NCBI RefSeq assembly: GCF_029051685.1
Contig: NZ_JAACFT010000005.1
Coordinates: forward strand, 124,001-188,000
Source: Bradyrhizobium sp. CSA207
GTDB taxonomy: Bacteria > Pseudomonadota > Alphaproteobacteria > Rhizobiales > Xanthobacteraceae
Length of the DNA stretch: 64,000 bases
Direction: 5' to 3'
Shown: positions 8,715 to 12,056 of the stretch, piece by piece
How the letters are laid out: every line of letters starts with the position of its first letter
Numbering within the stretch: position 1 is the first letter of the stretch
Program-made: the position numbers and the translations under genes
The notes under the pieces: model-generated
The model's database searches: none
What the model was told of the DNA's origin: nothing
Seen by the model: the letters and a program-made list of their open reading frames with translations, nothing else

Positions 8715-9063
8715 GGCGCGTCTCCCTGAGCGTGCCTTTTGGGCGTGCCCTGCTACCACCGGACTCCGGTGCCGCGCGATCTACCGGAGCTGGCGCCTGC
8801 GCCGGGCCGCAACGCTCACAGCGCGTTCCCGCTGTGCGGGCGGCTCCAGACTTTCACCGATGTCATTCTAGCACGCGAGGTGGTAGTTTGCCTGGGAATC
8901 CTGCTGCTGGGCGCAAGATATGACCCCGCCGACCTCAAGCCGCCCATGGGCCGACAGGATCGCTGCGCGCATCGCGCGCTGAGGGAGAGTCTCAACCGTT
9001 GAATTTGCTCGCGGCTGCGATCGGCAGGCTGAGCAGGTGCTGCCATTTTCGGGGACGTGGTGC
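8715..9063. other. intergenic region without clear features
   Basis: About 350 bases lie between the divergent solute-binding-like gene and the hybrid kinase gene. It must contain both promoters, but I see no good -35/-10 pair with 16-18 base spacing, no strong palindrome and no convincing small coding frame with a ribosome site. Confidence 0.4.
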
Positions 9064-11475
9064 ATGGGCAATGCAGGTGACGATGATCCCAAGCGCGGCC
9101 GCGCCATTGCGCCGGCGGCAGCGAAGCAGGATTTGACCGGCATCGGCGCCGCGCTCGCGGCCCCGATGTTCGCGGCGCTCCTGTCACGGATATTCAACTG
9201 GTCGCGCAGTGGCGTCGGGCCCCGCCTGCTTGCCGCCGTGCTGCTGTTCTCATCGGTCGTGACGCTGACGCTGACCGCGCTTCAGCTCTATCTGGATTAT
9301 AATCGTGAGGTCGGACTGATCGAGACACGGCTCGATGAGATCGGCCGCAGCACCACGGGCAGCCTCGGAGAGAGCATGTGGAATCTCGACCAGAACCAGC
9401 TCAAGCTCCAGCTCGACGGCATTCTGCGGCTGCCTGACATCCGTGCGGCGGAGGTCCGCGAGATCGCCGATCGGCCCAATCCGATCCGCGTCGAGGTCGG
9501 CGAGCGAAATACCCGTTCGGTCATGACCCGGGAATTTCCGCTGACCACCATGGTGCAGGGGACCTCGCGCGCTATCGGCACGCTCCGGGTCGAGGCCACG
9601 TTGACCGACGTCTATCAGCAATTGCTGAACCGGGTGCTCGTCATTCTGGCAAGCCAGGCAGCCAAGACGTTCCTCGTCTCCCTGTTCATCATCTACATGT
9701 TTCATCTGCTGGTGACGCGGCATCTCGTCGCCATCGCCGAGTACGTCGGCAAATACAGCCTCGGACGGCCGCCGCCGCCTTTGCACCTGGAGCGCCGGCC
9801 GCCCTATGATCCCGACGAGCTGGACAAGGTGATCGATGCCTTCAACGCCATGTGCGCCAATCTCGAGCGTGCCTATGGCGAGCTGCGCGAGGCCAATGGG
9901 AATCTCGATCGTGACCTGAAGATCCGCCGGCGCGCCGAGGGGGACGCACGCGCGAGCGAGCAGCGCTTCCGTGATTATGCCGAGACCGCGTCCGACTGGT
10001 TCTGGGAGACCGGATCGGACCACGTGTTCACCTACATTTCGGATCGGGCCGATGCCTTCGGCATGGACCACAATGCCCTGATCGGCAAGCGCCGTTCGGA
10101 TGCCGCCTTCGACCACGATGCCGAGCCGCAGAAATGGCGCGGTCACTTGGCGATGCTGGATCGCCACGAGCCGTTCCGGAAATTCGAGTATCGCGGCCGC
10201 GACGCGGCCGGACGCCCGCGCCATTTCAGCGTCAACGGCCAGCCGGTATTCGGCGCGGACGGACGCTTCATGGGCTATCGTGGTTCGGCCACCGACCTCA
10301 CCGAGCAGCACGAGACCGAGGAGCGGCTTCGCCAGTCGCAGAAGATGGATGCGATCGGCCAGCTCACCGGCGGCGTCGCGCATGACTTCAACAACGTGCT
10401 CACCGTCATCACCGGCACCATCGAGATCATCCGGGAGGGGCTGGCGGACAAGCCCGACCTCGCCGCGATCGCCCAGCTCATCGACGATGCGGCGTCGCGC
10501 GGCGCGGAGATCACCTCGCAGCTCCTGACCTTTGCGCGTCGCCAGCCGCTGGAGCCGCGCGAGATCGACGTCAACGGCCTCGTGCTCGAGACGGCGAAGC
10601 TGTTGAAGCCGATCCTGGGCGGAAACGTCGAAATCGTGACCTGCCTCGCGGACGACGCCTGGCCGGCGATGGCCGATCCGTCGCAGCTGTCGTCGGCGAT
10701 CGTCAATCTCGCTGTCAATGCGCGCGATGCGATGCCTGGCGGCGGCAGGCTGACGCTTGAGACCGCAAACCGGGAATTCGACGGCGCGGATGGTGCCGGT
10801 GACGGCGACGTCAAGCGCGGCGCCTTCGTCATGGTCGCAGTGGCCGACACCGGCCACGGCATCCCCGCCGACATCCGCGACCGCGTGTTCGAGCCGTTCT
10901 TCACCACCAAAGGGGTCGGTCGCGGCACCGGGCTCGGCCTCAGCATGGTCTACGGCTTCGCCAAACAGAGCGGCGGCACCGTTGCGATCGAGAGTGAGGA
11001 GGGCCGCGGCACCGTGATTCGGCTGTTTCTGCCGCGATCGGCGGGCGGGGCGCCGGCAAGGACCGGGCCGCTGCAGGCGCCCGCGGCGGCACGCGGGCAC
11101 GAGACGATTCTCGTGGTCGAGGATGATCCGCTGGTGCAGGGCTATGTCATCGCCCAGCTCGGCAGCCTCGGCTATCGCACGCTCGCAGCCGGCGACGGCG
11201 CAACCGCGCTGGCGCTGGTGGAGCAGGGCGCCAAATTCGATCTGCTGTTCACCGACATCATCATGCCCGGCGGCATGAACGGGCAGGAATTGGCCGAGGC
11301 CGTGCGGCGCCTCCGCCCGGGAATGAGGGTGCTCTACACGTCCGGCTATACCGACAACGCCCTCGACCACGAGGGCCATCTCGATCCCGGTGTGGCGTTG
11401 CTGAAAAAGCCGTACCGGAAGTCGGACCTGTCACTGAGGATCCGCGAGGTGCTCGCCGGCGAGCTGCGCGCCTGA
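9064..11475 (+). CDS. hybrid sensor histidine kinase/response regulator
   Basis: This membrane sensor kinase has its own receiver domain (803 residues from the chosen start). Order: a first membrane helix LLAAVLLFSSVVTLTLTALQ, an extracytoplasmic sensor domain of about 120 residues, a second helix around LVSLFIIYMFHLL, a PAS-like domain (DYAETASDWFWETGSD), the HisKA box with phospho-acceptor H440 in GVAHDFNN, an HATPase domain (NLAVNARDAMP, DTGHGIP, GRGTGLGLSMVYG), and a REC domain with phospho-acceptor D731 in LLFTDIIMPGG. No separate regulator adjoins it. The start is uncertain: GTG at 9037 and later ATGs are possible. Confidence 0.9.
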   Translation: MGNAGDDDPKRGRAIAPAAAKQDLTGIGAALAAPMFAALLSRIFNWSRSGVGPRLLAAVLLFSSVVTLTLTALQLYLDYNREVGLIETRLDEIGRSTTGSLGESMWNLDQNQLKLQLDGILRLPDIRAAEVREIADRPNPIRVEVGERNTRSVMTREFPLTTMVQGTSRAIGTLRVEATLTDVYQQLLNRVLVILASQAAKTFLVSLFIIYMFHLLVTRHLVAIAEYVGKYSLGRPPPPLHLERRPPYDPDELDKVIDAFNAMCANLERAYGELREANGNLDRDLKIRRRAEGDARASEQRFRDYAETASDWFWETGSDHVFTYISDRADAFGMDHNALIGKRRSDAAFDHDAEPQKWRGHLAMLDRHEPFRKFEYRGRDAAGRPRHFSVNGQPVFGADGRFMGYRGSATDLTEQHETEERLRQSQKMDAIGQLTGGVAHDFNNVLTVITGTIEIIREGLADKPDLAAIAQLIDDAASRGAEITSQLLTFARRQPLEPREIDVNGLVLETAKLLKPILGGNVEIVTCLADDAWPAMADPSQLSSAIVNLAVNARDAMPGGGRLTLETANREFDGADGAGDGDVKRGAFVMVAVADTGHGIPADIRDRVFEPFFTTKGVGRGTGLGLSMVYGFAKQSGGTVAIESEEGRGTVIRLFLPRSAGGAPARTGPLQAPAAARGHETILVVEDDPLVQGYVIAQLGSLGYRTLAAGDGATALALVEQGAKFDLLFTDIIMPGGMNGQELAEAVRRLRPGMRVLYTSGYTDNALDHEGHLDPGVALLKKPYRKSDLSLRIREVLAGELRA

Positions 11476-11496
11476 GCAGCACGCACGATACCAACG

Positions 11497-11528
11497 AAAA
11501 AGGCGCGGCGGGGAAGCCCCGTCGCGCC
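11497..11528 (-). terminator. intrinsic terminator, bidirectional
   Basis: A 12-bp stem (11502-11513 with 11517-11528, one G-U pair) and a 3-base loop are followed on the minus strand by five Ts (plus-strand AAAAA at 11497-11501). It ends the short minus-strand unit at 11663-11497. On the plus strand it is followed only by a weak T-rich run and could also stop the hybrid kinase transcript. Confidence 0.75.
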
Positions 11529-11589
11529 CGATTTCTTGCTCGCTGGTCCAGGGCCGAGAGCGCCCCGATGCCAAGCTCTTTTCAAAAGC

Positions 11590-11634
11590 TTAGCGGGCGA
11601 TCCCAGCGAGGTGACAGCGCTTGGTAAAAGACAC
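11590..11634 (-). CDS. 14-residue peptide with an extreme Shine-Dalgarno
   Basis: This tiny frame starts with GTG at 11634 and reads MSFTKRCHLAGIAR, then TAA. It sits directly behind GAAAGGAGGTGATCCAG, which is complementary over 17 bases to the 3' end of 16S rRNA. The AGGAGG-to-GTG distance is 7 bases, which is optimal. A near-consensus promoter lies upstream (11670-11698) and an intrinsic terminator downstream (11497-11528), so it appears to be the only coding element of a transcript of about 167 bases. I do not recognise the peptide. It may be a functional small protein, a leader peptide or a by-product of an RNA that pairs with ribosomes. Confidence 0.6.
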   Translation of the reverse strand: MSFTKRCHLAGIAR

Positions 11635-11669
11635 TGGATCACCTCCTTTCGTTGGTTTCGGAAGATTTC

Positions 11670-11698
11670 AATATAGGCGGCGACGCCGCTCTTGTTAA
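11670..11698 (-). promoter_or_regulatory. near-consensus sigma-70 promoter
   Basis: Reading the minus strand, TTAACA (11698-11693) is separated by exactly 17 bases from TATATT (11675-11670). Each box matches the housekeeping consensus in five of six positions, unusually good for this high-GC genome. The predicted start near 11663 gives a 29-base leader before the 14-codon frame. Confidence 0.65.
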
Positions 11699-11773
11699 GG
11701 GGAGGCGGGCTAGGGAGGAACCAGCGCTGTTCGCGAGAGCCGGGAAGGCTGCGGAAAGCCGCCTCCTGGACAG

Positions 11774-11802
11774 TTGAGACCGCCGCCCGGCCGTGTTAGG
11801 GA
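11774..11802 (+). promoter_or_regulatory. promoter of tRNA-Gly
   Basis: TTGAGA (11774-11779), a 17-base spacer and TAGGGA (11797-11802) end 9 bases before the mature tRNA 5' end. That leaves room for a transcript starting at or just before the tRNA. The boxes are moderate; spacing and position carry the call. Confidence 0.5.
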
Positions 11803-11811
11803 GCCGGTGAT

Positions 11812-11885
11812 GCGGGTGTAGCTCAATGGTAGAGCAGCAGCCTTCCAAGCTGAATACGAGGGTTCGATTCCCTTCACCCGCTCCA
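11812..11885 (+). tRNA. tRNA-Gly (TCC)
   Basis: The acceptor strands GCGGGTG (11812-11818) and CACCCGC (11875-11881) pair fully. The D arm is GCTCAATGGTAGAGC, the anticodon loop CTTCCAA carries TCC, and the T loop is GGTTCGATTCC. The discriminator is T11882 and CCA is encoded (11883-11885). The antisense strand produces well-known spurious peptides. Confidence 0.97.
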
Positions 11886-12056
11886 AATTCGGTGCCGCAG
11901 TTTTTCTGGTATTCTCCGGGACTGCTGGTCCAGTTGACGGCAGGCGCGAGGCCCGGCCGCACAGCGCGTTGGAAGCGGGAGTGAACTCTTCCACAGGAAC
12001 CTTCGCGGTAAAGACGAGTTGGCGGGTCGAGTGGACGAAATGTCACGAGGCCAACC

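Follow-up and report, generated by a model that had tools for sequence, protein, structure and literature searches.

The small gene at 11497–11698 on the minus strand of the window, a 64,000-nucleotide stretch of DNA from Bradyrhizobium sp. CSA207, is a copy of rreB, a mini-gene that had already been published. Predicted structures and energies suggest that its message probably masks its own start and is opened mainly by 30S subunits whose 16S tail out-pairs the mask.

The gene has a compact layout. A sigma-70-like promoter, TTAACA-N17-TATATT, is located at 11670–11698 (TTAACA at 11698–11693, TATATT at 11675–11670). It was the only sigma-70-like site found when 11400–11900 was scanned (shuffles averaged 0.1), and its -10 region is kept across the aligned rreB-type loci. 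The 17-nt Shine-Dalgarno (SD) sequence, GAAAGGAGGTGATCCAG, occupies 11634–11650 and leads into an ORF at 11590–11634 that starts with GTG (11634–11632), encodes MSFTKRCHLAGIAR and ends with TAA (11592–11590). An intrinsic terminator at 11497–11528 consists of a GC-rich 12-pair stem (11528–11502) and a T5 tail (11501–11497); the terminator scan listed the stem for the plus strand only, and the minus-strand T5 was read from the letters. The hairpin is near-symmetric, with five T in eight in its plus-strand tail, and may serve, on its far side only, the convergent plus-strand gene ending at 11475. Read from the sequence, the predicted transcript, running between promoter and terminator, would be about 165 nt long and monocistronic, with a GTG start and a 14-aa ORF.

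The promoter, leader match, ORF and terminator with T5 that the first-pass annotation had described on the minus strand are all present. It had placed the 17-mer and the GTG one after the other; both elements exist, but they are not separate, the last G of the 17-mer being the G of GTG. Its view that the gene is monocistronic and not an attenuator of a neighbor also holds, as there is no same-strand gene close downstream and the ORF at 9037–11475 (plus strand) is convergent. Upstream lies a divergent tRNA-Gly (TCC) at 11812–11885 on the plus strand. Of 11 rreB-type loci scanned, the window's own among them, 10 have this tRNA-Gly no more than 250 nt from the gene, and in the eleventh it is 2.4 kb away; a tRNA scan of 3 kb found none at four loci of other genera.

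The 17-mer at 11650–11634 and the 3’ end of the genome’s own 16S gene, GCGGCTGGATCACCTCCTTTCTAAGG, are exact reverse complements, so the complementarity first proposed from the letters extends over all 17 positions. Exact 17-mer sites in the 8.44-Mb genome number two, the rreB locus and the 16S gene, as compared to about 0.001 expected at uniform base composition, and a chance origin was rejected; four further sites carry two mismatches. An antisense 16S fragment was also rejected, the only Rfam hits within the window at gathering thresholds being three tRNAs.

The locus corresponds to the rreB of Hahn et al. 2017 (RNA Biol 14:1353, doi 10.1080/15476286.2016.1256534), a publication of which the first-pass annotation was unaware. 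In Bradyrhizobium, rreB is said to comprise a 17-nt SD, a GTG, a 14-aa ORF and a 165-nt mRNA, and its transcript reportedly associates or co-sediments with 30S subunits. Translation is said to be weak, with both the long SD and the GTG start holding it back, and a stop codon in place of the start reportedly stabilizes the transcript, linking its decay to ribosomes. Similar ribosome binding sites reportedly precede sORFs in several alphaproteobacterial orders, and rreR of the Rhodobacter/Roseobacter lineage is said to have a long anti-16S SD as well; the abstract is not known to mention SD-masking codons. Two functions had been proposed for the window’s gene from its letters, a highly expressed micropeptide and an RNA that titrates or probes free 30S subunits. 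An RNA that probes free 30S subunits is the better proposal, whereas a highly expressed peptide was rejected in view of the reportedly weak translation. Also against it, a small protein of 14 aa from B. japonicum and one of 18 aa from Dinoroseobacter shibae are both listed as unstructured in a paper that cites Hahn et al. 2017 (PMC7217052). The former is very likely the rreB peptide.

A feature overlooked in the first reading is the complementarity between the coding sequence and its own SD. The comparison of codons 1–14 across relatives found the frame open in all 114 rreB-type loci and codons 6, 9, 10 and 13 identical in every one; codons 7–8 are changed in two loci and codon 3 occurs in nine forms. 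It had been allowed that relatives might keep no more than the terminator, but the codons and the match to 16S are conserved along with it. TGT and GCT are invariant in these loci and GGG is near-invariant, although each is rare in the ORFs of the window (11%, 5% and 7%, respectively), and their third bases fall inside predicted helices.

Three such helices were considered. In the RNAfold structure of the window transcript, GAGGUGA of the SD pairs with UCACCUC of codons 7–9, and codon 6 pairs with the start codon. This helix, H1, uses codons 6–9 (CGCTGTCACCTC, 11608–11619) and is predicted to pair the SD core (11645–11639) with 11614–11608, and 11636–11632, including the start codon, with 11619–11615. 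RNAalifold on 62 loci returned H1 again, together with pairing of codons 10–11 with the 3’UTR. As a further option, pairing of GGUGAUCC-AGUG of the SD region with codons 9–13 was tested. In this predicted helix, H2, the arm from the third base of codon 9 to codon 13 (CGCTGGGATCGCC, 11596–11608) would pair with the 3’ half of the SD and the start codon (11643–11632), with one bulged G in codon 11; covariation supports it. H3, predicted and supported by the alignment, would join codons 9–11 (CTCGCTGG, 11603–11610) to a 3’UTR arm (CCAGCGAG, 11539–11546) whose last seven bases are identical in all 62 aligned loci. All three helices use codon 9 and would therefore compete.

Calculated energies favor the 16S tail over either mask. 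The duplex between the 17-nt SD and the 16S tail was calculated at -32.4 kcal/mol (-29.7 if the tail is taken as GGATCACCTCCTTTCT), as compared to -13.7 for H1, -14.9 for H2 and -9.5 for an ordinary AAGGAGG:CCTCCTT pairing. Opening the SD and start codon of the window transcript would cost 15.2 kcal/mol, whereas 200 synonymous recodings averaged 7.0 (p 0.015). Net of the opening cost, these bare-RNA energies would leave about -17 kcal/mol for the long SD and about +6 for an ordinary one; by this model, such a mask demands a long SD.

Covariation within rreB was assessed in an alignment of 62 loci, in which the window’s own locus is joined by 61 of the 109 further rreB-type regions that are non-identical. 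For H2, the column pair 48–87 is A-U in 41 loci, G-C in 17, G-U in 4 and broken in none. The number of H2 cells changed on both sides was 18, as compared to a shuffled mean of 6.6, and none of 500 shuffles reached that number; slid versions of H2 each pair at 50% or less. The H2 pair 51–84 is unpaired as written in 12 of the 62, although it would re-form if the bulge were shifted by one base. For H3, the column pair 84–201 is G-C in 44 loci, A-U in 12, G-U in 5 and broken in 1. On two of the five measures, the double-changed pair count and the pair-type count, neither H2 nor H3 exceeded shuffles (313 and 499 of 500 as high). In the case of H1, no pair is changed on both sides, and the helix is partly broken in 2 of 62 loci. 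The covariation in rreB amounts to one pair per helix, perhaps reflecting one or two events.

The H2 covariation extends to all 114 rreB-type loci, in which base 11 of the SD and the second base of codon 12 are A/T in 93, G/C in 17 and G/T in 4. Most loci with the SD G belong to a single genus, where the 16S end is still GGATCACC in all nine genomes with a match (17 searched). In this genus, therefore, the SD change weakened the match to 16S, while the match to the codons was kept.

The pattern is widespread. Of 391 genomes searched in the family, at least 277 carry the 17-nt SD followed by TG with no more than one mismatch, as do 29 of 143 in the class, and a reversed control gave 0 in every row of both searches. 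Among the matches listed for the genus, own genome included, 107 of 107 have a single copy. Four genera of the family with near-complete genomes (g41, g24, g14 and g7) have no SD-TG among the matches listed with one mismatch allowed. The scan of named genomes comprised at least 119 stretches, and 250 loci were read, yielding 168 distinct ORFs; five sites from the 17-mer search of the own genome, which lack the SD-GTG pattern, were left out. These ORFs were sorted as rreB-type (40, with 14 or 17 codons), rreR-type (35, with 18 codons), MSHC (71, with 14–33 and mostly 20–26 codons, for example in Methylobacterium, Bosea and Brevundimonas), MSSE (12, with 22–26 codons), Azospirillum-type (3, with 57–59 codons) and other (7). 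MSHC, MSSE and MSHG are labels coined from peptide starts, and the rreR-type loci are those that resemble rreR. The seven others form a mixed control of four non-alphaproteobacterial records, two alphaproteobacterial records and one further record.

Codon 2 is TCN in most members of the five groups and in none of the seven others, which makes a single family with diverging peptides likely. The AAC of the leader barely discriminates, as it is present in 156 of 161 distinct loci of the groups and also in 5 of 7 others. A terminator-like hairpin is present in 37 of 40 rreB, 21 of 70 MSHC, 19 of 35 rreR, 8 of 11 MSSE and 6 of 6 other distinct loci, and in the promoter scan by group MSHC was near the shuffled null. 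These counts confine the case for a single-gene transcript to rreB.

The rreR-type and rreB genes are alike in their long anti-16S SD, but the rreR ORF has 18 codons and a different peptide, and its predicted hairpin covers the start codon and the end of the SD but usually leaves the GGAGG core free. Unlike rreB, the rreR-type gene sits behind a transporter-like gene. Of the 35 distinct rreR-type loci, 34 (for example L144, L094 and L037) have a same-strand ORF that ends 53–174 nt before the SD and, judged by eye, resembles a queuosine-precursor transporter (YhhQ-like).

Several other observations were made among the relatives. At seven loci of the MSHC, MSSE and rreB types (L047 included), a same-strand ORF was found at a median distance of -63 nt. 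Judged by eye, it is acetyl-CoA-synthetase-like, and its recurrence hints at a single ancestral site. At L082, L110, L121, L273 and L305, the long SD is followed by ORFs of 55–59 codons that resemble secreted small proteins and have in common a C-S/T-x-S-H stretch past the predicted signal. One genome (G399) has two differing members, of the MSHCH type (L270) and the MSHGS type (L271), each with an altered SD. Two Phycisphaerales loci among the matches listed (L045 and L103) carry an identical 19-base SD-GTG word before ORFs of 11–12 codons, with CTCGACGGAG downstream in both and without the alphaproteobacterial codon 2.

The groups differ in how strongly the ORF matches the SD. The duplex between ORF and SD was stronger than in shuffles (p<=0.05) in 30 of 40 rreB, 37 of 71 MSHC, 4 of 12 MSSE and 2 of 7 other ORFs, whereas no excess was seen in rreR (4 of 35 at p<=0.05) or in the MSHG/Azospirillum group (0 of 3). 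Synonymous recoding was applied with minimum energies to 194 ORFs, all of them no longer than 120 nt and with a stop codon within the sequence examined. The native opening cost exceeded the recoded mean in 40 of 40 rreB, 31 of 35 rreR, 9 of 12 MSSE and 18 of 30 SD-variant ORFs, with no such excess in MSHC (34 of 71) and 1 of 6 among the others; p was 0.05 or less in 22 rreB, 11 rreR, 6 MSSE, 8 SD-variant, 12 MSHC and 0 other ORFs. In these models, the evidence for masking at the RNA level is strong for rreB and fair for rreR and MSSE. MSHC is not supported by the recoding test; its key word is usually an in-frame TGG, which cannot be recoded.

Genomes with a changed SD provide a further comparison. 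Immediately ahead of the start codon, 30 of 387 genomes have an SD that deviates from the 16S complement; the set of variants comprised 38 distinct sequences, including L162 from the window’s family, with the TTG-start variant L267 left out. Across these 38 sequences, each SD word was compared with permuted ones for its fit to the ORF, and the true pairings came out better (mean z -0.32, p 0.005). With kinship ignored, variants with T at SD base 15 (SD ATCCT, coding AGGAT) carry their own 5-base word in 6 of 9 distinct sequences versus 6 of 178 others (Fisher 1.3e-6) and those with G in 4 of 17 versus 7 of 170 (Fisher 0.011), while C variants display no excess (1 of 5 versus 36 of 182, Fisher 0.67). 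The own matched word is present in 11 of 31 SD-variant loci and absent from 20. A GATCCTG in the SD stands opposite CAGGATC at L260, L282 and L289–L291, which represent two families, CGGATC stands against GATCCG at L258, L278 and L268, and CGGGATC against GATCCCG at L257. In the case of L162, AGG replaces the Trp codon TGG of its relatives, opposite a change of SD base 15 from A to T. The 16S end was recovered for 1 of 12 and then 1 of 14 SD-variant genomes, and that of G620 is the usual one. Within MSHC, the mimic word lies in one frame in 53 of 71 ORFs and in other frames in 5 (L096, L113, L149, L064 and L092), with 13 lacking it. In MSSE, 11 of 12 ORFs lack the word, and no matching of an ATG or GTG start to T or C in the mimic was visible.

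Other functions were weighed against self-masking. The RNA could act in trans as a decoy that holds or titrates 30S subunits, or touches 16S 3’-end maturation, with masking tuning its affinity and translation being incidental. The 17-nt match and the reported 30S co-sedimentation agree with such a role, as do the five MSHC loci that keep the mimic in another frame, so that the peptide is not what is kept there. A pure decoy, however, has no need for ORF segments complementary to its own SD or for SD variants that lower the 16S match yet keep the codon match, and the gene also retains a start, an ORF and a stop; we consider it unlikely. Less probable still is a functional micropeptide, with the 14-aa peptide as the product and the long SD securing its translation. 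The frame is open throughout the rreB-type loci and KRCHLAxxAR is almost constant, but synonymous sites are fixed too, rare codons included, and L162 alters its Trp codon in step with the SD. Moreover, the other groups keep the SD although their peptides differ in both length and sequence, and a peptide of such size is listed as unstructured (PMC7217052).

That the gene is an attenuator of a neighbor or a type I toxin-antitoxin mRNA is very improbable. An attenuator would require a regulated gene downstream on the same strand, and none was found, the downstream gene being convergent and the upstream tRNA-Gly divergent. The toxin-antitoxin reading draws on AapA3 of Helicobacter pylori, in whose mRNA an anti-SD within the ORF (aSD2) competes with further helices that mask the SD, including one formed with the 3’ end, and the competing in-ORF and 3’ helices of rreB resemble this arrangement (PMC6733600). 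A scan of 11400–11900 limited to sigma-70-like promoters found none on the plus strand, and the peptide is charged (K, R, H, R), without the hydrophobic stretch or helix of a toxic peptide.

An anti-SD within the ORF is described for AapA3 and, with covariation, predicted for rreB; AapA3 differs in its ordinary SD, antisense antitoxin, toxic peptide and lack of a 16S extension (PMC6733600). A second parallel is the leader uORF of duf1127 in Sinorhizobium meliloti, where the ribosome binding site and the first 10 codons form a hairpin when the ribosome is late (PMC12218461). Unlike rreB, that leader controls a downstream gene through premature termination, and no long 16S match is mentioned in the portion of the report available (PMC12218461). 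By analogy with these accounts, rreB would work like both, yet it belongs to neither class because it has no toxin-like peptide and no downstream gene.

Self-masking, the preferred reading, would proceed as follows. After transcription, the SD and GTG would be closed by codons 6–9 (H1) or 9–13 (H2), and the 16S tail would find its toehold in the first bases of the SD (at least GAAAG), which stay free. As branch migration extends the duplex to 17 pairs, codons 9–11 would be released to pair with the 3’UTR (H3). A 30S subunit would open the mask because 17 pairs beat it, which an ordinary SD would not. The resulting 17-pair complex would be long-lived, and initiation would need its partial melting; the last pair uses the G of GTG, which would account for weak translation. 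In this way the RNA may report, or modestly hold, free 30S subunits. CHLAGIA would be encoded mainly because this sequence is required at the RNA level, and the peptide is probably secondary.

More tentatively, and with appreciably greater doubt than for rreB itself, the genes might form a class of alphaproteobacterial ‘ribosome locks’. Their codons would mimic the 16S 3’ end and shut their own SD, which only an authentic 16S tail, with 15–17 matching bases, could open by strand displacement. Acting in cis, they would sense 30S subunits that are free or newly matured, with peptides as by-products of the mimicry, and SD and mimic would coevolve despite the cost to the 16S match.

No report of SD masking by 16S-like codons was found in the open-licence literature, a scope outside which the full rreB paper lies; the gene is published, and the logic is not in print as far as searched. 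If this logic is true, it would explain why the long SD reportedly reduces translation instead of enhancing it. Many alphaproteobacteria would then hold a natural gauge of free 30S subunits, and mimicry of rRNA, not the encoded peptide, would have shaped the coding sequence.
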